Source of the DNA: Bacteroidota bacterium
Lineage (GTDB): Bacteria; Bacteroidota; Bacteroidia; B-17B0; Aurantibacillaceae
Reading direction: 5' to 3'
Length of the DNA: 64,000 bases
NCBI GenBank assembly: GCA_021156365.1
Contig: JAJNDK010000016.1
Span: 1-64,000 of the forward strand
This document shows, piece by piece, positions 11,697 to 23,490 of this stretch. The position numbers and the translations under genes are program-made. The notes under the pieces were generated by a model. The model was given only the letters and a program-made list of their open reading frames with translations, ran no database searches and was not told the origin of the DNA. Each line of letters starts with the position of its first letter. Position 1 is the first letter of the stretch.

Positions 11697-12557
11697 ATGA
11701 GATCCGCAGGCAACAAATTGACAATTGCATCTATACTCGCCGGTATTTTTACCGTCATCCTGATCACTGCAGCCGGGACTAAAAACGATTCCTATTCAAA
11801 GATCGGGCAAACAGGTACAAATCAGAACACTTTCAGCAAAGATCTTCCTACCAAAACAAACGAAGCATTCAAGCCCGGAGAATTATTGAGCTACCGCCTG
11901 CATTATGGTGCCCTTGAAGCTGCACACGCTACGCTGGAAGTAAAACCGGACCTGGAAAAGATAGGAGCACGCGATTGTTATCACATTGTGGGTTTAGGTA
12001 TTTCCAAAGGAAGTTTTGACTGGGTTTATAAAGTGCGTGATAAATACGAGACCTATATCGATAAGAACGCTCTCGTTCCCTGGATCTTTAATCGTAATTG
12101 TTCGGAAGGCGGATACGAAATTCACCAGAATTATATTTTTAATCACTTCACCAATAAAGTAGATGTGGGTGGCGGGCAAACTTTTCCTTTCGCTGATGGC
12201 ACACAGGATATGATCTCTGCTTTCTACTCGGCAAGAAACATGGATTTTACCAATGCAAAAGAGGGAGACATCTATTCACTGAATTGTTTTATTGATAAAG
12301 AAAACTGGCCACTGAAGATCAAATTCGTTGGCAGAGAAGTGATCAAAAGCGATGTAGGCAAGATCCGTTGTTTAAAATTCAGACCGATCGTTCAAAAAGG
12401 ACGTGTGTTCAAAAAAGAGGAAGACCTTACGATCTGGATCTCTGACGATAAGAACCACATCCCTATCCGCGGGCAAGCCAAGATACTCATAGGCTCTATA
12501 AAATTAGACCTGACAGGCTTTAAGAACCTTGCGAATGATATTGCCAAAGTTGATTAA
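11697..12557 (+). CDS. DUF3108 family exported protein
   Basis: The 286-residue protein starts with a hydrophobic stretch (LTIASILAGIFTVILITAAG) that is a signal peptide or N-terminal anchor. The rest fits the DUF3108 family: FKPGELLSYRLHYG near residue 62, a DWVYKVRDKYETYID block, and TIWISDDKNHIPIRGQAKI near the end. These periplasmic proteins are predicted to be beta-rich with an LolA/LolB-like shape; their ligand is unknown. The gene runs toward hisS and the two are separated by an inverted repeat that could end transcription from both sides. Confidence 0.8.
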   Translation: MRSAGNKLTIASILAGIFTVILITAAGTKNDSYSKIGQTGTNQNTFSKDLPTKTNEAFKPGELLSYRLHYGALEAAHATLEVKPDLEKIGARDCYHIVGLGISKGSFDWVYKVRDKYETYIDKNALVPWIFNRNCSEGGYEIHQNYIFNHFTNKVDVGGGQTFPFADGTQDMISAFYSARNMDFTNAKEGDIYSLNCFIDKENWPLKIKFVGREVIKSDVGKIRCLKFRPIVQKGRVFKKEEDLTIWISDDKNHIPIRGQAKILIGSIKLDLTGFKNLANDIAKVD

Positions 12558-14167: not shown

Positions 14168-15574
14168 TTAACCCAGCAATACTTTCTTCACATCTGCGAG
14201 AATATCAAAAGCTGAGGCCTTGTCTTTCGCTTCTGCGTATGTTCTCAGTACGGGCTCTGTGCCTGATGCACGGATCATCGTCCAGGTATTGTCATCGAAG
14301 AAGAATTTAAATCCGTCGAGGTCTTCTATACGCTCTATTTTGTATTTACCAAATTCTTTGTATTCGCCTTTTTTGCATTTTTCCACGATGGCGTTCTTTG
14401 TTGCATCATCGATATACAGGTCGTTCCGCTCGAACCAGAACGTACCCGTAATATCGTATACTTCCTGGATCAGCTCTTTCAGGCTCTTGCCGGTTTTAGC
14501 CATAAATTCCCAAAGTGTAAGCCCCATCCAGATACCATCCCGCTCCGGAATATGTCCTTTGATAGCGATCCCTCCGCTCTCTTCTCCTCCAACCAATACG
14601 TCTTCCGTCACCATGATCCCGCAAATGTATTTGAACCCGATCTTTACTACATCCAATGGCAGGTTGTAATGCGCACACATGTTCTTGATCTTTACGGTAG
14701 TGGAAAATGCCGTACACACTTTTCCTTTTTGCCCTTTGTATTTTACGAGGTAATGGATCAGCAAAAGAATGATATGATGTGAATCCACAAAATTACCTTC
14801 ATTGTCGTAAAGCCCGATGCGATCGGCATCTCCGTCCGTACAGAGCCCGCAATCAATTTTACCGTCGGCTTTGATCAGGTTGGAGAATTCTGTGAGATTC
14901 TTATGGATAGGCTCCGGTGCCTGACCTTTGAAGCCCGGATTTTCATCACCATGCAGGTGAATGATGTCGGGGAACAAACGTTTCATGGCACGCTGTCCTG
15001 CTCCGTACATGCTGTCATATGCGAGCTTCAATCCTGAGTTTTTGATCGCTTTCAGATCGAAGCTTTCTTCTACTCTTTTTATGTATAGGTCCTCTAAGGG
15101 AGCGATCTGCAACAGACCGCTTTTCTCTGCCTCGGCAAAATTCACTGTTTCGTAATTGGTAGATGACTTGTCAGCGATCATATCTTCGATCTCCTGCACC
15201 TGTTCCGGCATCATCGGTCCACCGTAATTTCCTTTCAGCTTAAACCCGTTATAGGAAGGAGGATTGTGGCTGGCCGTAAGGATGATCCCTATGCTCGTTT
15301 TGTAATGCACGGTGCCTAACGATACCATCGGTGTGGAAACAAAATCCTTCGCCAGGTATACTTTGATACCATGAGCGAGCAATACTTTTGTAGCCGTTTC
15401 TGCAAACAGTTCTCCTGCAAAACGGCAATCGTGTCCCACTACTGCCGATGGATTGGGTCCTTGTTTTTTCAGCCAGATCGCCGTTGCTTCCGTAACCCTT
15501 GCTACATTTTCTACTGTAAAATCTTTGGCGATAATTGCACGCCACCCATCTGTTCCAAATTTAATCTTCGTCAT
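14168..15574 (-). CDS. Phosphoglucomutase/phosphomannomutase family enzyme
   Basis: This 468-residue alpha-D-phosphohexomutase interconverts sugar 1- and 6-phosphates. Visible signatures are FGTDGWRAI at the N-terminus, the active-site loop TASHNP with phosphoserine S102, the metal-binding loop DGDADR at 247-252, the sugar-specificity loop GGEESGG, and the phosphate-binding RASGTEPVLR near the C-terminus. The GEESGG form is typical of glucose- or mannose-type enzymes rather than GlmM. Physiologically it probably supplies sugar-1-phosphate for nucleotide sugars or glycogen. It is followed downstream by hisS and preceded by the SPFH-M48-barrel cluster; the 33-base gap makes co-transcription with them possible but unproven. 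Confidence 0.93.
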   Translation of the reverse strand: MTKIKFGTDGWRAIIAKDFTVENVARVTEATAIWLKKQGPNPSAVVGHDCRFAGELFAETATKVLLAHGIKVYLAKDFVSTPMVSLGTVHYKTSIGIILTASHNPPSYNGFKLKGNYGGPMMPEQVQEIEDMIADKSSTNYETVNFAEAEKSGLLQIAPLEDLYIKRVEESFDLKAIKNSGLKLAYDSMYGAGQRAMKRLFPDIIHLHGDENPGFKGQAPEPIHKNLTEFSNLIKADGKIDCGLCTDGDADRIGLYDNEGNFVDSHHIILLLIHYLVKYKGQKGKVCTAFSTTVKIKNMCAHYNLPLDVVKIGFKYICGIMVTEDVLVGGEESGGIAIKGHIPERDGIWMGLTLWEFMAKTGKSLKELIQEVYDITGTFWFERNDLYIDDATKNAIVEKCKKGEYKEFGKYKIERIEDLDGFKFFFDDNTWTMIRASGTEPVLRTYAEAKDKASAFDILADVKKVLLG

Positions 15575-15607: not shown

Positions 15608-16411
15608 TTAAAAGAGATAACCTACTCCGAGGTAAAAAGTGGCAAGGTCTCTCAGATGCAGGCGGTTCGAAATGGTCCAGCTCACGTTTTTTAATGAAAG
15701 GTTTACATCCTTAATATCATCCGAACGCGTCGGCAAAAAGAAACCTATTCCCCTGTTCACCACGATGCGGTCATTATAGATCCTGTTCGTACCAAAGCTG
15801 CAGCCCCAGCCGAAAGACCCTGTTTTGTAATAACCTACATCAGAGTTCAGAACCAATGGATTGAGAACCGAAGCCTCATTATCGCTTTCTAATTGTTTTT
15901 CTACAAACTTGCCCATCATGCTGCAATAACCTGCCGTGAGCTTAAAATACTTTCCATAGGGTGCGAGGGCATTCTTCCCATAGATCACAAACGAACCGGT
16001 GTAATAATGCCCGTATACATTCATCTTTTCATTTGTATAACTATAAGTAGTTGTTACCCCGGTTGCCGAATTTATTACATTGTGATTGAACGTGAAATAT
16101 TCTTTGGAAGCAGCAAACATATAGTTGAACGACATGGAGAATTTTCGGCCCATTACCCGTTCAATGCTGATCGTATGTGTCACATTGAAAGGAATGAATG
16201 CGCTTTCTTCGGCCGTACCCCGCGGATAAACATCGCGGTTTTTTGGCATAATCCTGTTCAGGTAAGTAGGATGCCGGAATGCGGGAGTTACATTCACCTT
16301 ATAGTCAACAAATGTTTTTTTGCCCTGGTATCCGGGCACAATAGATTGTGCGTGTAATGAAATACCAATCACTACCCCTATTACACAAGCGATCTGTTTT
16401 ATCGTTCTCAT
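15608..16411 (-). CDS. Putative outer-membrane beta-barrel protein
   Basis: This 267-residue exported protein has a clear Sec signal (MRTIKQIACVIGVVIGISLHAQS). The mature part is rich in alternating aromatic and polar residues in beta-strand style (RKFSMSFNYMFAASKEYFTF, YGKYFKLTAGYCSMMG), and it ends with ATFYLGVGYLF, a terminal aromatic motif typical of barrels inserted by BamA. I do not recognise a family. Its start overlaps the stop of the M48 protease gene by 4 bases (ATGA), a sign of translational coupling, so a functional partnership with the protease is likely. Confidence 0.7.
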   Translation of the reverse strand: MRTIKQIACVIGVVIGISLHAQSIVPGYQGKKTFVDYKVNVTPAFRHPTYLNRIMPKNRDVYPRGTAEESAFIPFNVTHTISIERVMGRKFSMSFNYMFAASKEYFTFNHNVINSATGVTTTYSYTNEKMNVYGHYYTGSFVIYGKNALAPYGKYFKLTAGYCSMMGKFVEKQLESDNEASVLNPLVLNSDVGYYKTGSFGWGCSFGTNRIYNDRIVVNRGIGFFLPTRSDDIKDVNLSLKNVSWTISNRLHLRDLATFYLGVGYLF

Positions 16412-18795
16412 TTGTATTTGGGCTGTGATTTAATGGTTAACATGGTATCATACACAAAGGCATTCAAAAAATCCTTTGAATCCTTCAATCGTACAACTGT
16501 GGTATTGGTATACAGGATCTCATTTTCCTGCAGATCGTAGACCACTGCGAAATAAAGTGTTTGTTGTTCTTTCCGGAGCAGGTATGGGATCGTGAACGGT
16601 GCAGCGAGACCCAGCGTCAGTATCGTAGTTGCTACTGCAGCTCCTACATGCTCTTTTTTCGTACGATGCGTATATACTCCGCTCCACATTACATAACGTG
16701 TATCGTATTTCTTTTTCAGTTGCTCTGCCGCATCGTTGCTTAAGATCAGCATATTCCTGTTATATCCATGCTCAAGGAATTCCGTCGTCCAGTCGTTCAG
16801 CAGGGTGTAATCATTGTACTTATCAATGTCATCAGTACTCAGCGAGTGGGAATCGATGTAGTCATTTTTTAATCCTACCCGATCTGCATTCTGTTTCAAT
16901 ATCTCACCGAACTGCTGGAGCCGTTCTTCCGAATCGTAATACTTATAGCTCTCTCTTACACGCTCATCCGTTTTAATATAAAAAGGATCGAGGATCACCA
17001 GCTTCTCTATACCTACACCTCCTGTATTTTCTTTCTGTTTTTTGTTCTTAACGATGGAATCGAATTTTCGCCCCCGATATTTTTTATTGAATTCCTCCGC
17101 TGCAGCCAGCTTGTCGGCAAAGTCTTTTTCTCTCAGCAGTTCCGAGAAGGCATACTTATCAAATTCATCATTCAGCTTAGTGATCAGTCTTTGAACACGG
17201 GCCGAATCGGTTTCCACCACTTTTTCTTCCTTCACTTCCACTGTCTTGGTCTGCACATTGATCCGGGTGATCTTGCTATCCGCTTCATCGCTTTCCAGTT
17301 CGTCGAGCGAGCTCAGTGTTTTGCGGATCGTATCGGTTTTCACAACCGTGCTGTCCGTAGCTGTACTGTCTCTTACAATTTTTTGTGGTGTCAACTCACG
17401 GATATATTCCTGCCTTGTTTTTTTATGAAAGTAAGTAGAAGTGATCTCATTGTTCAGAGCCAGTAATACAAAAAGTGAGTCGCAGAGCATTTTCACCTGC
17501 TTGTCATCTTTGAGTTCCTTGTTTAATTTCCAATTGTAATTAAGAGCCGTGATGTTACTTTCGGTAGCCGACAGATTGCTCAGCAAATGATACACCTGCT
17601 GTGAATTTCCTTCTACCACCGAATAATCGTAGGAAATAGTAGCGCTTCCCGAAATGTCCAGTGTAGGCTCGATACAGCCTTTGTATTCTTTTTCCTGCGG
17701 AGCTTTGGCAGCTGCCATATTGAACAGGGCTTTCCCGATCATTTTTTTCAGGTAGACGTTGTCCGGATATTTTTTCAGTAAAACATACGCTTCATAAATG
17801 CAATCCGCATATTCTTCCTGCTGCAGATCGATGTTGCATAGCTCAAAGCGTGCCGTTTCGCGCATCTTGTAAAATTCATCCTTGTTCACGAGGAATTTTT
17901 CCCGGCCGTCATCCGAAAACTCGCCCAGCTCACGGCTTACATTGTCTTTTCTTTTTTTGATGTTCGGATGTGAGCTTTTGCTGTCATCATAGTTCTCATC
18001 CACTTTGATCGGATTCAGTTCTTTGATGAAATAAGTTGCCGGAAATACAAGGTTGCTGTCCTCCAGAAAACTTTTATCAAATTTGATCTCATCGAAAGGC
18101 AGGTACGAGTATTTAAGCATATTAAAAGCACCCGTAATGCCTTTGTAGCTGTACTTTGTTTTTTTAAACAGCTTAAGTCCTTCTGCATCCGCCTCAAATT
18201 CGGCATCCTGGCTATAGCGGTATTCATCAAAACTGTTTGATTTTTTGTAGGTATTCGAATGCGTGGTCACATACGAATCAACCGAGTGTTTTTTGGTAAA
18301 ATGTGAGGCTTCGTGACTGAGAATATAGGCGAGCTGAGCTTCATTATCCAGCTGTGACAAAAGCCCGATGGAAACGATGATCATACCGTTGTCAGCCGTA
18401 AAAGCATTCACAATATCACTCTTCAAAATATAGATCTGGATCCCTTTCCGGATCTCCGGGTCACTTTTGAAGGTTTCGTCGGCTACTTTATTTACAAACT
18501 GCGAGAGCGAATCGTTGAACATTATCTTTCCGCTCCGGAGGATCTGGTCGATCTGGAAGTTGGAGATCAGGTAAAAATTCTCTTTTGCCTTGCGGGTATT
18601 ATAATTCTTTTCTTTTTGTGCGGTGGCGATATCAATATTCGCTTTTTCCGTAGCAGTGGTCGTATAAATGAGCGGCAGCTTACCCATAGAGATCAAAGGC
18701 TTGTAATCTGACTCAAATTGTTTGATCTGCGCATGTGATAGCTGAAACGATAAACAAAAAAGGAAAATAAGAATGGATGCGAAAATTCTCAGCAT
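16408..18795 (-). CDS. Exported M48-family metalloprotease with large C-terminal region
   Basis: This 795-residue protein has a signal peptide (LIFLFCLSFQLSHAQ) followed by an M48 zinc-protease domain. HEASH (H161-E162-H165) supplies two zinc ligands and the catalytic Glu, and E199 in EFEAD is the third ligand. Upstream GMIIVSIGLLSQL also fits the family. The rest (about 250-795) is unusual: a TPR-like helical part (IDLQQEEYADCIYEAYVLL), a charged coiled region near 470-560, and a hydrophobic stretch near 690-715 (VATTILTLGLAAPFTIPYLL) that may anchor the C-terminus. It is predicted to act in the periplasm. The SPFH gene ends 12 bases upstream and the barrel gene overlaps by 4 bases, pointing to one operon. 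Confidence 0.88.
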   Translation of the reverse strand: MLRIFASILIFLFCLSFQLSHAQIKQFESDYKPLISMGKLPLIYTTTATEKANIDIATAQKEKNYNTRKAKENFYLISNFQIDQILRSGKIMFNDSLSQFVNKVADETFKSDPEIRKGIQIYILKSDIVNAFTADNGMIIVSIGLLSQLDNEAQLAYILSHEASHFTKKHSVDSYVTTHSNTYKKSNSFDEYRYSQDAEFEADAEGLKLFKKTKYSYKGITGAFNMLKYSYLPFDEIKFDKSFLEDSNLVFPATYFIKELNPIKVDENYDDSKSSHPNIKKRKDNVSRELGEFSDDGREKFLVNKDEFYKMRETARFELCNIDLQQEEYADCIYEAYVLLKKYPDNVYLKKMIGKALFNMAAAKAPQEKEYKGCIEPTLDISGSATISYDYSVVEGNSQQVYHLLSNLSATESNITALNYNWKLNKELKDDKQVKMLCDSLFVLLALNNEITSTYFHKKTRQEYIRELTPQKIVRDSTATDSTVVKTDTIRKTLSSLDELESDEADSKITRINVQTKTVEVKEEKVVETDSARVQRLITKLNDEFDKYAFSELLREKDFADKLAAAEEFNKKYRGRKFDSIVKNKKQKENTGGVGIEKLVILDPFYIKTDERVRESYKYYDSEERLQQFGEILKQNADRVGLKNDYIDSHSLSTDDIDKYNDYTLLNDWTTEFLEHGYNRNMLILSNDAAEQLKKKYDTRYVMWSGVYTHRTKKEHVGAAVATTILTLGLAAPFTIPYLLRKEQQTLYFAVVYDLQENEILYTNTTVVRLKDSKDFLNAFVYDTMLTIKSQPKYK

Positions 18796-18807
18796 ATCAG
18801 GAAATGG

Positions 18808-19731
18808 TTATTTTTTATTGTTTGAGTCCAGATGCGAAATAGCCATTAATTCTTTTATTGTTCTATCCATGCCCTGTGTAGAGCCATCGAGGAAGATCAC
18901 GTTACCCTTACCCTGCTCGGCAAAATTCTTGATAGATTCGGTCCACATACTGAAGAGGATAAAAGACGGATCGAGCTCAGCCTCGTTCATCATTTTTGCA
19001 GCACCCGACATCCCTTTGGCCACTTCTTCGCGGAATAAAGCAATACCCTGTCCGCGGAGCTGGGCAGCTTCTTTTTCGGCCTGAGCTGCAATTTTGATGG
19101 CATTCCCTTCTGCTTCGGCACCTTTTGTTTTGGTGATCAGTAAAGCCTGACCTTCGTTCTCTGCGGCAGCTTTCAGGTTGTTGGAAGCCACTACTTTTGC
19201 CATCGAGCGCATCACTTCTTCATCAAATGTAATATCATTCAGCTGGAGATCGATCAGGTGATATCCCCAGGATTCAAGCGTTTGATCCAATTGATCTTTT
19301 ACCGCTTCTACAATATCTCTCCGTAATAACAAAACCTCCGATTGTTTTTTGGTAGCAACGAAAGCCCTTACCGAACCTTCGATGGAACGTACGAGTGCCT
19401 GCATAAGATTTCGGTCATCAAGGAATTTAAAGGCTACGTTCTTGATCGTTTCTTCCCGCTGATCCAATACCGAATACAGCAGCATGGCCGTAAAATTCAC
19501 ATTGGCCTGATCCACCGTAACAGCCTGGAATCCCAGCTCTGCCGAACGGTTCTGGATACTGATCTTTTTTGTCACTCTTTCGATGATCGGCAGCTTAAAG
19601 TTTAAGCCGGGTGGTAAAGTCCTCCTGTATTTCCCGAAAATGGTTGTTACTGCTACTGTTCCCTGTTGAACAGTTTTGAAACTCATTAAAAGTAAAAGCG
19701 CGACAACGCCAAGGGTGATGTAAAGAGCCAT
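18808..19731 (-). CDS. SPFH/Band 7 (stomatin-like) membrane protein
   Basis: This 307-residue protein has one N-terminal membrane helix (MALYITLGVVALLLLMSF), an SPFH domain (about 25-190, with VQQGTVAVTTIFGKYRR and PGLNFKLPI), then an alanine/glutamate-rich coiled coil (about 190-240, QALLITKTKGAEAEGNAI). Band 7 proteins oligomerise into membrane microdomains and often sit beside proteases (HflKC with FtsH, stomatins with NfeD-type proteases). Here the following gene, 12 bases away, is an M48 protease, which supports the same principle with a different protease class. The substrates are unknown. Confidence 0.92.
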   Translation of the reverse strand: MALYITLGVVALLLLMSFKTVQQGTVAVTTIFGKYRRTLPPGLNFKLPIIERVTKKISIQNRSAELGFQAVTVDQANVNFTAMLLYSVLDQREETIKNVAFKFLDDRNLMQALVRSIEGSVRAFVATKKQSEVLLLRRDIVEAVKDQLDQTLESWGYHLIDLQLNDITFDEEVMRSMAKVVASNNLKAAAENEGQALLITKTKGAEAEGNAIKIAAQAEKEAAQLRGQGIALFREEVAKGMSGAAKMMNEAELDPSFILFSMWTESIKNFAEQGKGNVIFLDGSTQGMDRTIKELMAISHLDSNNKK

Positions 19732-19807: not shown

Positions 19808-21931
19808 CTACTGAATGATAAGCTTTTGAGTAACAGCGAATTTGCCATTACCTATCTTCAGAAAATAGATCCCGGGAAGGGCGGTCAATTGAAGGTTTTG
19901 TTTGTCGGTTGTCACCACACCCGTATATACAATTTGCCCGAGTGCATTGATCAGCTCTATTTTACTTCCCACCTGTTCTTTGCCTTGTAATTCAATCTGA
20001 ACGGCTCCATTCGTAGGATTTGGGTATACCATGAAAGTCCCTGACAGCTTATTCATTGTTTGAATGCCGATCGGGTTCTGGCAGGTAAGTGCACCGTAAC
20101 CATCCAGCTTGCCATAGCCATAGGTATTGTTTGGATTGGGCCCTGTGAAACCATCATGGATGGCACAGGTAATGATGTCCTGTTTCAATTGCTGATAAGT
20201 AGCTGTCGGGTACATTTCGAAATACAAAGCGGCGAGCCCCGCCACAACAGGTGATGCAGCCGATGTTCCGCCAAAGATCATATGCATACTGTCCTGCGTA
20301 ACGATATAGGGGAAATTGATCGCCAGCCAGCCCATGAAGGTTTGTTCACCTACCGTAACAATGTTCTCTCCTGTGGCACTGATATCCGGCTTGATACGCC
20401 CGTCGCGTGTGGGTCCCAGACTGGAGTTATCAAAAATGCTGTCTACCACTCCCGGAAAAAAACTAAGTGTATCACGCACATCTATGTAACTATCGCGCCC
20501 TACGTAATTTCCTACACTGATGACCTTGTTGCTGCATTGCAGACTGGTACACATTGTTTGCAATGTATCCGTTCGTTTATAATAGATCATATCAGGGCGG
20601 ATCGCTGTGGAAGGCAGATTCGTATACTTATAATCGAAATTCCAGGAATCGAAATAACCGGAACCTGTAGTTTCAAAAGACCAGAAATAGCCAACACTAT
20701 CGGGTACTACCATCACCGAAAATATGACCAGACTATCGACCACATCCGTATAGGAACTAACAATCCCAATCCTGTTGCCATTGTTCCATAAGGTGTCTGT
20801 TCTCAGCACCGCCAGTGAAGAATCTGCGTTCCGGTAACCGATGTTTCCCCTGTATGAATAACTTATTTTATCTGAAGCGCCAATAGTAAACTGTACATTC
20901 CTGAAATCCGCTGTATCTGCATATACATCGAATATGACCGGATCGGCAGCATTCACATTAGGCGCCTGCAGCCAGGTAAAATTCGTATCGGCATTTACAG
21001 CATATCCCAAATGGAAGGGAATATTTCCTCCGTTACCGTTGGCTGCCACCACTGCCCGCCCGCTCTGTGCAGTCAGCATGTTATCGATAGCCTGCGCCTG
21101 CAGATCTGTTCCGTCGTGTGAACCATAGTAATCACCCAGACTGATATTGATCACGCAGGGTTTTCCTTCCAATGCGGCTTTTGCAAAAATATAATCCATC
21201 GCATCCACAACAGTCGGTCCGGGATTCGTAAAATCAAGCGAAACAAAAATAATATCCGCTTCCGGAGCAATACCTCGATACTGGAAAGCAGAATTACCGT
21301 TGCCGGCAGCTACTCCTGTTACTTTGGTGCCGTGGCCTCCGTTGGTATAATCCGTATGATTGCTCAGGCCGCTGTCGAGCTGTACCCCGCTCCACTCCTG
21401 GCCATAATTGTATGGCATGGGTGTATTCAGCGAATCTGCCTGTGCCTGATCCCAGATCCAGAGTACACGCGACTTTCCACTGCTGTCTTTAAAATCGGGA
21501 TGTGAATAGTCGATCCCGGTATCAATTACCCCGATGATCACATCTTTTCCTTTGTATCCCTGTGTAAGCGGAATTTGTCCTGCATGAACAGGAGTGATAT
21601 TGTTTTTCGACAGCGAGGAATCGTCCAGTACCTTGTAGTGCTGGATATTTAGCTCCATACGCTGAATGCAGCCTGCAGCCGACATCTTCTGCAGATCGGT
21701 TCCTTTTCCACGAATAACAGAAGTGTTTTTTACTGCATATAAAAACTCAAGTCCCAGTTTTTTTGCCTGTTCTTCCACCTGTGCGGCATCGCCTTTCGCT
21801 ATCACCGTGTAGATCGCATCACCATGCTGCTGAATAGCTTTTACCAGCGGAAAGTTAAGTTTGCTGCTTTGTTGGGCAAAAATCAGGGAAGAAAGGAATA
21901 AAAAAGGCAGGAGAAATTTGGATATGGGCAT
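19808..21931 (-). CDS. Secreted subtilisin-like serine protease with T9SS sorting domain
   Basis: This 707-residue S8 peptidase has a signal peptide (FLLPFLFLSSLIFAQ), an inhibitor-like prodomain, then the catalytic triad: D137 in GVIDTGID, H200 in GGHGTKVTGVAAG and S557 in GGTSAASPVVAGLAAL. A beta-rich insert of about 200 residues separates His and Ser, much longer than in subtilisin. The final 80 residues (FMVYPNPTNG..., LTALPGIYFLKI, QKLIIQ) are a T9SS type A sorting domain, so it is exported to the surface or medium, probably for protein degradation. An alternative start 48 bases upstream would overlap the divergent adenylation gene; the ATG just before the signal peptide (21931) is preferred. 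Confidence 0.93.
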   Translation of the reverse strand: MPISKFLLPFLFLSSLIFAQQSSKLNFPLVKAIQQHGDAIYTVIAKGDAAQVEEQAKKLGLEFLYAVKNTSVIRGKGTDLQKMSAAGCIQRMELNIQHYKVLDDSSLSKNNITPVHAGQIPLTQGYKGKDVIIGVIDTGIDYSHPDFKDSSGKSRVLWIWDQAQADSLNTPMPYNYGQEWSGVQLDSGLSNHTDYTNGGHGTKVTGVAAGNGNSAFQYRGIAPEADIIFVSLDFTNPGPTVVDAMDYIFAKAALEGKPCVINISLGDYYGSHDGTDLQAQAIDNMLTAQSGRAVVAANGNGGNIPFHLGYAVNADTNFTWLQAPNVNAADPVIFDVYADTADFRNVQFTIGASDKISYSYRGNIGYRNADSSLAVLRTDTLWNNGNRIGIVSSYTDVVDSLVIFSVMVVPDSVGYFWSFETTGSGYFDSWNFDYKYTNLPSTAIRPDMIYYKRTDTLQTMCTSLQCSNKVISVGNYVGRDSYIDVRDTLSFFPGVVDSIFDNSSLGPTRDGRIKPDISATGENIVTVGEQTFMGWLAINFPYIVTQDSMHMIFGGTSAASPVVAGLAALYFEMYPTATYQQLKQDIITCAIHDGFTGPNPNNTYGYGKLDGYGALTCQNPIGIQTMNKLSGTFMVYPNPTNGAVQIELQGKEQVGSKIELINALGQIVYTGVVTTDKQNLQLTALPGIYFLKIGNGKFAVTQKLIIQ

Positions 21932-21972
21932 GTTCTGGAAATATTTACGAAATTTACAAAGGAATAAGCAAA

Positions 21973-23490
21973 ATGTCAAACACGGGAACTAAATATACGA
22001 TCACGGAAAACGATACGTCTTTGTGCGCAGGTTTCCTGTTTTGGTTGCAGCATTCACCAGATGCTCCTGCCCTTCATATCAATGATACACTCTACACGTA
22101 TCAGCAATTGTTTGATATAGCTATTCCAGTATACGAAGAATTGAAAAAATATCCGAAAGAAAATATAGGGATCTATTGTACACCGGATGTATACTCCTAT
22201 GCATCTATTCTTGCCATCTCCCTCGCTGGAGGCTGTTATGTGCCCCTGAATGTAAAATATCCGAATGCAAAGCTGCGCCATATCATCCGTGATTGTGAGC
22301 TGGAATTGCTGCTGGTACACGGTTCGAAATATGATGTGCCTCCCCTGGAAAAACTGCAGGTAGTAGACACCTCCCTGCTGAAAAAAGTAACTATTACCGA
22401 TGAAGCTCCTGCTTTCATAAGTCAGCACTATGCATATATTCTTTACACATCCGGAACCACGGGAGAGCCCAAAGGAGTGCCGATAAGTAAAAGAAATGTG
22501 AATGCCTTTTTCGGGTTCTTCCTGCAGGAATACGATTTTAATCCGAAAGATCGTTTTTTACAACCCTACGAATTGAGCTTTGACGTATCCGTTTTTTCCG
22601 TTTTTTGTGCATGGAATGCAGGAGCTTCGGTTTATGTAGTAAAGGATGCTCCTGCTAAATACCTGGAGATCTTTAAAACCATTCAAAACCACGGGATCAC
22701 TGTTTCCAGCATGGTTCCTGGCGTGTTGAAACTGGCTGCTCCTTTCTTACAGGAGTTTCATTTTCCTGAGCTACGGTATTCTTTCTTCTCCGGGGATGCT
22801 CTGTACCAGCCGGATGTACAGAAGTGGAAGCCATGCATTCCGAATGCACAGATCCACAATTTTTATGGCCCCACCGAAACAACGATCGTATGCACACGGT
22901 ATTGCTGGGATGAACAAACATCGGCTGCAGAAAGTCATTCCGGTATTGTTCCGCTTGGCAAAGTCTTTCCCGGCATGCATTTTATCTTAGTGGATGAAGC
23001 CGGCAGCCTTATTGATGAAGAAGACATACATAAAAACGCAGGTGAGCTTTGTTTCAATGGGGAACAGGTGATCGATAAGTATGTCGGCAATCGGTCTGCT
23101 GAAAGTTTTTTTGAGCACAATGGCAAAACCTGGTATAAAACAGGGGATTGGGCCAGTGTAAATAAACAAGGAGATCTTATTTTCCGCGGACGACATGACA
23201 CGCAGGTGAAAATAAACGGTTACAGAGTGGAGCTGACAGAGATCGAAAAAAACATTTCCTTACTGACTAAACAGGAATGCAAAGTAATAATGGGTAATCC
23301 GAGCGAACTCCCTGTTCTGATCGCCTTTGTGGAAGGAAGCAAATACACCGAAAGAGAGATGAGAAATGAGCTCAGCTGGTACCTGCCTTCTTATATGCTG
23401 CCTTCAAAAATTATCTTTGTGGAAGCCTTTCCGAAAAACGAGAACGGGAAAACCGATATGAACAAACTAAAAAGAATGCTGTATGCCTGA
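21973..23490 (+). CDS. Stand-alone amino-acid adenylation enzyme (AMP-binding)
   Basis: This 505-residue ANL-superfamily enzyme activates a carboxylate with ATP and passes it to a carrier protein. Core motifs: A3 YTSGTTGEPKG (158-168), A5 NFYGPTETTIVC, A7 YKTGDWA, A8 RGRHDTQVKINGYRVE and A10 NENGKTDMNK with the catalytic Lys. D204 in SFDVSVF corresponds to the Asp that binds the alpha-amino group in NRPS A domains and DltA, which favours an amino-acid substrate. The next gene overlaps by 8 bases and encodes a carrier protein, the natural acceptor. Unlike dlt operons there is no DltB or DltD, and unlike NRPS there is no condensation domain. The substrate and fate of the carrier-bound residue are unknown. 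Confidence 0.85.
   Translation: MSNTGTKYTITENDTSLCAGFLFWLQHSPDAPALHINDTLYTYQQLFDIAIPVYEELKKYPKENIGIYCTPDVYSYASILAISLAGGCYVPLNVKYPNAKLRHIIRDCELELLLVHGSKYDVPPLEKLQVVDTSLLKKVTITDEAPAFISQHYAYILYTSGTTGEPKGVPISKRNVNAFFGFFLQEYDFNPKDRFLQPYELSFDVSVFSVFCAWNAGASVYVVKDAPAKYLEIFKTIQNHGITVSSMVPGVLKLAAPFLQEFHFPELRYSFFSGDALYQPDVQKWKPCIPNAQIHNFYGPTETTIVCTRYCWDEQTSAAESHSGIVPLGKVFPGMHFILVDEAGSLIDEEDIHKNAGELCFNGEQVIDKYVGNRSAESFFEHNGKTWYKTGDWASVNKQGDLIFRGRHDTQVKINGYRVELTEIEKNISLLTKQECKVIMGNPSELPVLIAFVEGSKYTEREMRNELSWYLPSYMLPSKIIFVEAFPKNENGKTDMNKLKRMLYA

Follow-up and report, generated by a model that had tools for sequence, protein, structure and literature searches.

A gene for a BepA-like exported M48 metalloprotease and the gene directly downstream of it, which encodes a predicted eight-stranded outer-membrane barrel, form a pair whose products probably cooperate in outer-membrane assembly or quality control, because the two genes are directly adjacent in many relatives too. 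The pair was found in a 64,000-nucleotide stretch of DNA from a Bacteroidota bacterium (the window, meaning the whole stretch analysed). With somewhat better than even confidence, we read it as a two-gene outer-membrane module, in which a periplasmic M48 protease/chaperone has its own barrel as a dedicated client or partner. A sequence-only reading of the same DNA had proposed a three-part envelope module that also contained the adjacent SPFH protein; its protease-barrel half is supported by conserved adjacency, but the SPFH half lacks such conservation. The M48-barrel pair is the finding worth keeping, and the SPFH part is dropped. The features of the locus are as follows.

19808-21979, minus strand: subtilase with a type IX secretion sorting domain (Pfam), 76 bases upstream of the SPFH gene.
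19731-18808, minus strand: SPFH/Band 7 protein, 307 aa, with one N-terminal TM (Band_7, E 3.2e-32, Pfam).
18795-16408, minus strand: BepA-like exported M48 metalloprotease, 795 aa (Peptidase_M48, E 6.5e-17, Pfam).
16411-15608, minus strand: predicted 8-stranded outer-membrane barrel, 267 aa, with an N-terminal PGYQGK signature after the signal peptide.
14168-15574, minus strand: phosphoglucomutase/phosphomannomutase (Pfam PGM_PMM I-IV).
11697-12557, plus strand: DUF3108 protein (Pfam), convergent with the HisS gene.

The open reading frames agree with the three-gene arrangement first described, all on the minus strand: 12 bases separate the SPFH stop from the M48 gene, and the M48 stop and the barrel gene share 4 bases. 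The directon continues past the barrel, with the phosphoglucomutase/phosphomannomutase gene beginning 33 bases after it; this gene is a neighbour in both genus members seen and lies outside the module. The subtilase gene is absent from the corresponding place in the same-genus locus L035. Where the SPFH, M48 and barrel genes adjoin, a site scan of the gaps detected neither promoter-like nor terminator-like sites on the minus strand. Three minus-strand promoter-like sites occurred in the scanned region, every one within coding sequence, and promoter-like sites totalled 5 versus 9.6 in shuffles. Terminator-like sites were commoner than in shuffled sequence (9 versus 3.8, sd 2.3), and the sole one on the minus strand (19710-19697) is within the start of the SPFH gene. 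A scan of the whole window for the TAnnTTTG promoter gave a count at chance.

Membership of the protease in the M48 family is clear from its Pfam Peptidase_M48 score (62.4 bits, cut-off 20.3) and from the presence of HExxH and a downstream Glu. The protein comprises a signal peptide, an M48 domain (~80-290), a helical region (~305-470 and 530-590) and a predicted C-terminal alpha/beta domain (~593-795), with linkers modelled at low confidence (mean pLDDT of the whole model 78.1), and its full-length relatives are ~700-830 aa. The active site proposed earlier, HEASH with E199, is upheld, as HEASH occupies residues 161-165 and E199 is invariant in the family alignment. E162, H165, E199, D203, H276 and R282 are kept in all 46 aligned sequences (a count that leaves out one fragment), and H161 and P277 each in 45 of the 46. 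One long homologue (L049, 6185-8557) has REIAH in place of HExxH and a barrel that is divergent on the other strand; it is possibly an inactive or altered enzyme.

The protease is BepA-like, being an M48 enzyme with zinc ligands, an HPx4R plug and predicted helices. In BepA the plug motif HPx4R consists of H246, P247 and R252 (from the available portion of PMC7950410), a spacing equal to that of H276-P277-R282 in the window protein, and the profile alignment sets stHPntkkR of the M48 family against STHPLTSER of 3c37. The first half of the modelled protein matches both BepA 6ait (VIA-align Z 17.7 over 242 residues at rmsd 8.2) and 3c37 (Z 17.1 over 204 residues at rmsd 4.1). Orthology to BepA is not supported by the NCBIfam equivalog M48_BAM_BepA, against which the window protein scores 41.9 bits, far below the cut-off of 570. 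It shares with BepA/YfgC of Escherichia coli an exported M48 domain that has HExxH, Glu as the third ligand and the HPx4R plug, the helices that follow (between 305 and 468 in the model) and a barrel-related context. In contrast to BepA, it has no TPR match in Pfam, carries an extra C-terminal alpha/beta domain of ~200 aa and has a barrel gene next door. LptD and BamA are encoded elsewhere than BepA. Both are substrates on which BepA acts, according to the accessible parts of PMC8423444 and PMC7950410.

Three more M48 genes are present in the window's genome (G000 contigs C7, C18 and C22; L001, L002 and L004), with open frames of 273, 491 and 663 aa. Plasmid carriage of the M48 was considered and rejected, as tblastn gave no match in a plasmid collection at E 1e-10.

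For residues ~590-795 of the M48 model, the best VIA fold matches were HpaA, PelC, FlgT, TolB-N, PqiC and CsgG (Z 8.1 down to 5.9), those at Z 7-8, namely HpaA, PelC, FlgT and TolB, spanning 112-146 residues, a score that can reflect just a common arrangement; families missing from this list are not thereby excluded. Foldseek gave HpaA, GNA1162 and PelC (prob 0.96-1.00, E 0.01-0.05). The fold match is taken seriously because the rows agree on one superfold and many are envelope accessory proteins. No family of the TolB-N/PelC/CsgG type appeared among Pfam or PDB sequence matches, an absence that does not exclude membership; the best single member in Pfam reached E 0.0069, with nothing convincing or recurring, and comparison with PDB sequences gave no convincing match. 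The predicted domain is tentatively likened to PelC, the TolB N-domain, CsgG, GNA1162, LpoB and HpaA by fold match. It differs from that group in being fused to a protease, in showing no lipobox to the eye, in lacking detectable sequence similarity and, for part of the family, in a C-terminal hydrophobic stretch. Such a stretch (19 residues of mean hydropathy at least 1.6 within the last 160 residues) is found in 16 of 43 long M48 proteins, including that of L035; the window protein, counted apart, scores 1.64. These stretches often contain prolines and possibly form a membrane-dipping loop. In the window's protease a hydrophobic insert of the C-terminal domain (16576-16647, M48 residues 717-740) is predicted to be helical, and it occurs in part of the family only.

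The putative barrel of the sequence-only reading gains a structural model, in which eight strands are predicted (mean pLDDT 80.6) and Foldseek finds OmpA-short (1.6e-5), Ail (7.2e-5) and OmpX (6.1e-4). The protein, with a signal peptide judged by eye, ends in GYLF (a C-terminal strand with an aromatic end) and is predicted to be an 8-stranded outer-membrane barrel of the OmpA/OmpX-like kind. It resembles OmpA, OmpX and Ail in predicted strand number and fold, but differs from them in its low identity (6-14% in the best fold matches), its N-terminal GYxGK tag and a helix before the last strand. The window's barrel has no Pfam match, and the family has no recurring one (1 of 23 members matches OMP_b-brl at E 0.012). 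A tag of the form G[YF]x[GN] lies within residues 16-75, just behind the apparent end of the signal peptide, in all 45 barrels of the fetched M48 neighbourhoods, and is followed by K or R in 39 of them. Two of three barrels found later also have the tag; the weak member L116 has none.

Conservation of the gene neighbourhood was assessed in 295 genomes of the class, with an M48 profile built from 20 sequences and long M48 defined as an open frame of at least 690 aa. The M48-barrel part of the proposed neighbourhood is kept: among the 98 long M48 genes, 72 have a member of the barrel family within 3 kb, compared with 0 of 10 for mid-sized and 3 of 26 for short M48 rows. An M48 gene lies within 3 kb of 77 of 87 barrels, and 69 of those 77 are on the same strand and downstream. 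The SPFH part fails, as in the genomes examined the SPFH gene was seen beside the pair only within the genus. As the barrel profile had been seeded with M48 neighbours, the count was repeated without the seed genomes, giving 69 of 79 barrels near M48 and 64 of 88 long M48 near a barrel. Counted by genome, both genes occur in 62, long M48 alone in 13, the barrel alone in 5 and neither in 215 (odds ratio 205, p 2e-44, the p being overstated by relatedness of the genomes). In the fetched neighbourhoods 37 of 43 long M48 genes have a barrel. In 34 cases it lies downstream in the same orientation, at a distance of -109 to 81 bases, and 9 of these 34 overlap by exactly 4 bases; gaps are measured from first possible start codons, and long overlaps may be start errors.

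The pairing is not one to one throughout. Tandem barrels follow one M48 gene in L043 (two), L044 (three) and L076 (three), and in L039 two M48 genes are followed by four barrels. No barrel was detected near 26 of the 98 long M48 genes in the class sample. When 20 of these loci were re-read with a small-database search, three had a barrel match beside the M48 gene, one a 264-aa neighbour that carries the tag but gave no profile match, one ended at a contig edge and 15 had no barrel beside them. Conversely, three genomes have a barrel profile match and no M48 match at E 1e-20. In one genome (G092 C1, 3823636-3828517) M48 rows lie in several pieces with internal stops, beside barrel pieces, and the gene is apparently broken.

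An exported family of ~550 aa adjoins 15 of 63 long M48 genes in the fetched neighbourhoods, a non-random set in which 20 loci had been picked because they lacked a barrel, one gene is included twice and one ~550-aa protein, in L039, was counted for two M48 genes. Six of these long M48 genes are without a barrel, namely L050 and five from the 15 re-read loci that had none. The family has no convincing Pfam match (best single member E 0.026) or PDB sequence match. Examples, with or without a barrel, are:

L039, 4702-6354: exported protein of ~550 aa.
L043, 8676-10346: exported protein of ~550 aa.
L050, 3215-4786: exported protein of ~550 aa.
L112, 3709-5331: exported protein of ~550 aa.
L117, 683-2359: exported protein of ~550 aa.

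The M48-barrel pair is patchily distributed. A further sample covered 198 genomes of the phylum, some of them shared with the class sample, and its listed members are 100% complete. In it, long M48 (at an E limit of 1e-40) or the barrel (at an E limit of 1e-6) was found only in the window's own genome, and one other genome has a short M48. The pair may therefore be uncommon in the best-sequenced lineages, a possible reason for the lack of any earlier description of it in the open-licence full-text literature searched.

BepA, a protease repressed by its plug, binds LptD during assembly and degrades LptD that has stalled, as described in the available text of PMC8423444, and the same logic is proposed here with a dedicated barrel. 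The plugged M48 protease would bind the unfolded barrel during assembly, perhaps via the tag, and would degrade it upon stalling, while the C-terminal PelC/TolB-N/CsgG-like domain would dock the enzyme at the outer membrane. Genomes in which several barrels follow a single M48 gene fit a client better than a fixed 1:1 subunit. A fuller version, which is tentative and rather unlikely, is a private quality-control system: the protease, with its own PelC/CsgG-like docking domain, would read the GYxGK tag at the periplasmic start of cognate barrels, hold them during assembly and destroy failures, so that a few related, tagged surface barrels would be served by one protease, as would the unrelated ~550-aa exported protein in other lineages. 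The barrel LptD and, under stress, BamA are the proteins with which BepA is chiefly associated. If a protease has a small barrel of its own, linked to it genetically and marked by a short conserved tag, the pair would offer a compact system for studying how M48 proteases recognise clients and how the His-plug switch works.

The barrel may instead be an outer-membrane anchor or sensor, its periplasmic N-terminal tag binding the M48 C-terminal domain and setting its activity. Close pairing of the two genes is compatible with this, as is the tag, which adjoins what would be the periplasmic end by analogy with OmpA-type barrels, and the predicted resemblance of the C-terminal domain to outer-membrane accessory proteins such as PelC and CsgG. 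However, a fixed anchor accords poorly with the genomes where a single M48 gene is followed by two or three barrels and with long M48 genes that have no barrel, and we consider it an unlikely alternative to a client.

It is more improbable that a general M48 housekeeping protease merely shares an operon with a surface barrel to which it is unrelated in function. Neighbouring genes need not encode proteins that touch, and agreement between M48 and barrel trees is modest (Spearman 0.50, higher than in all 2000 permutations; nearest neighbour shared in 15 of 37), a weak sign that linked inheritance alone would produce. Against this, the pair persists while flanking genes vary in the fetched neighbourhoods, the barrel is found in 45 of 156 sampled genera, and long M48 is present in 62 of the 67 barrel genomes.

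The proposed protease-barrel module probably does not extend to the SPFH protein. An SPFH match occurs in 174 of the 295 class genomes, and the 83 rows of close orthologues were used for the co-occurrence test. Both an SPFH orthologue and long M48 are present in 24 genomes, out of 83 with the orthologue and 75 with long M48 (odds ratio 1.28, p 0.46), which is co-occurrence at chance level across the class. Among the close orthologues of the class sample, that of the window is the only one with a long M48 gene less than 11 kb away, the next nearest pair on one contig being 11.5 kb apart (G284); the class assemblies are fragmented, and contig ends could hide a few such pairs. Among 41 fetched M48 neighbourhoods an SPFH gene was seen only in L035, from the same-genus genome G002, and 16 neighbourhoods of SPFH orthologues elsewhere gave no match to the window's M48 or barrel in a single-sequence search in which some stretches were short. 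G002 has the SPFH-M48-barrel-PGM-HisS order of the window, with an SPFH-M48 gap of about 22 bases and identities of 88% (SPFH) and 72% (M48). In the remaining genus member, whose genome is 66% complete, neither M48 nor SPFH gave a match. Conserved membership of SPFH in the module was accordingly rejected on adjacency (only G000 and G002) and on chance-level co-occurrence. The SPFH gene looks like a local neighbour, which as a co-directional gene is probably co-transcribed with the M48-barrel pair in this genus only.

The window's SPFH protein scores 57.1 bits against NCBIfam HflK (cut-off 159.4), and the genome has three other Band_7 genes and no NfeD match at E 0.001. OMA1 is an M48 enzyme, and the N-terminus of the window's SPFH protein is one that we take to resemble the QmcA type. 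The SPFH domain of QmcA/YbbK faces the cytoplasm (available text of PMC2636767 and PMC10434171). By analogy, that of the window's protein probably does so as well, whereas the M48 protease and the barrel are exported. Links between SPFH proteins and M48 proteases are not wholly without precedent, since multicopy QmcA rescues loss of ftsH and htpX (accessible part of PMC2636767) and prohibitins are tied to OMA1 in mitochondria (accessible part of PMC9643987). Like these pairs, and like SPFH proteins with FtsH or NfeD, the window brings an SPFH protein and a membrane protease into one context, but here the linkage is seen in one genus only and no NfeD accompanies it. One trans-envelope quality-control module of SPFH scaffold, M48 protease and barrel, as first suggested, is thus very doubtful: the shared order, short gaps and high identities in two genus members and the genetic links elsewhere speak for it, but the SPFH gene is not adjacent in the other class genomes examined, co-occurs at chance and encodes a domain that probably faces the cytoplasm. 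In L057, L058, L059 and L061 an exported protein of ~720 aa is encoded directly after the SPFH orthologue, and the two that were scanned, from L057 and L059, belong to the M43 metalloproteases and carry a type IX sorting domain.
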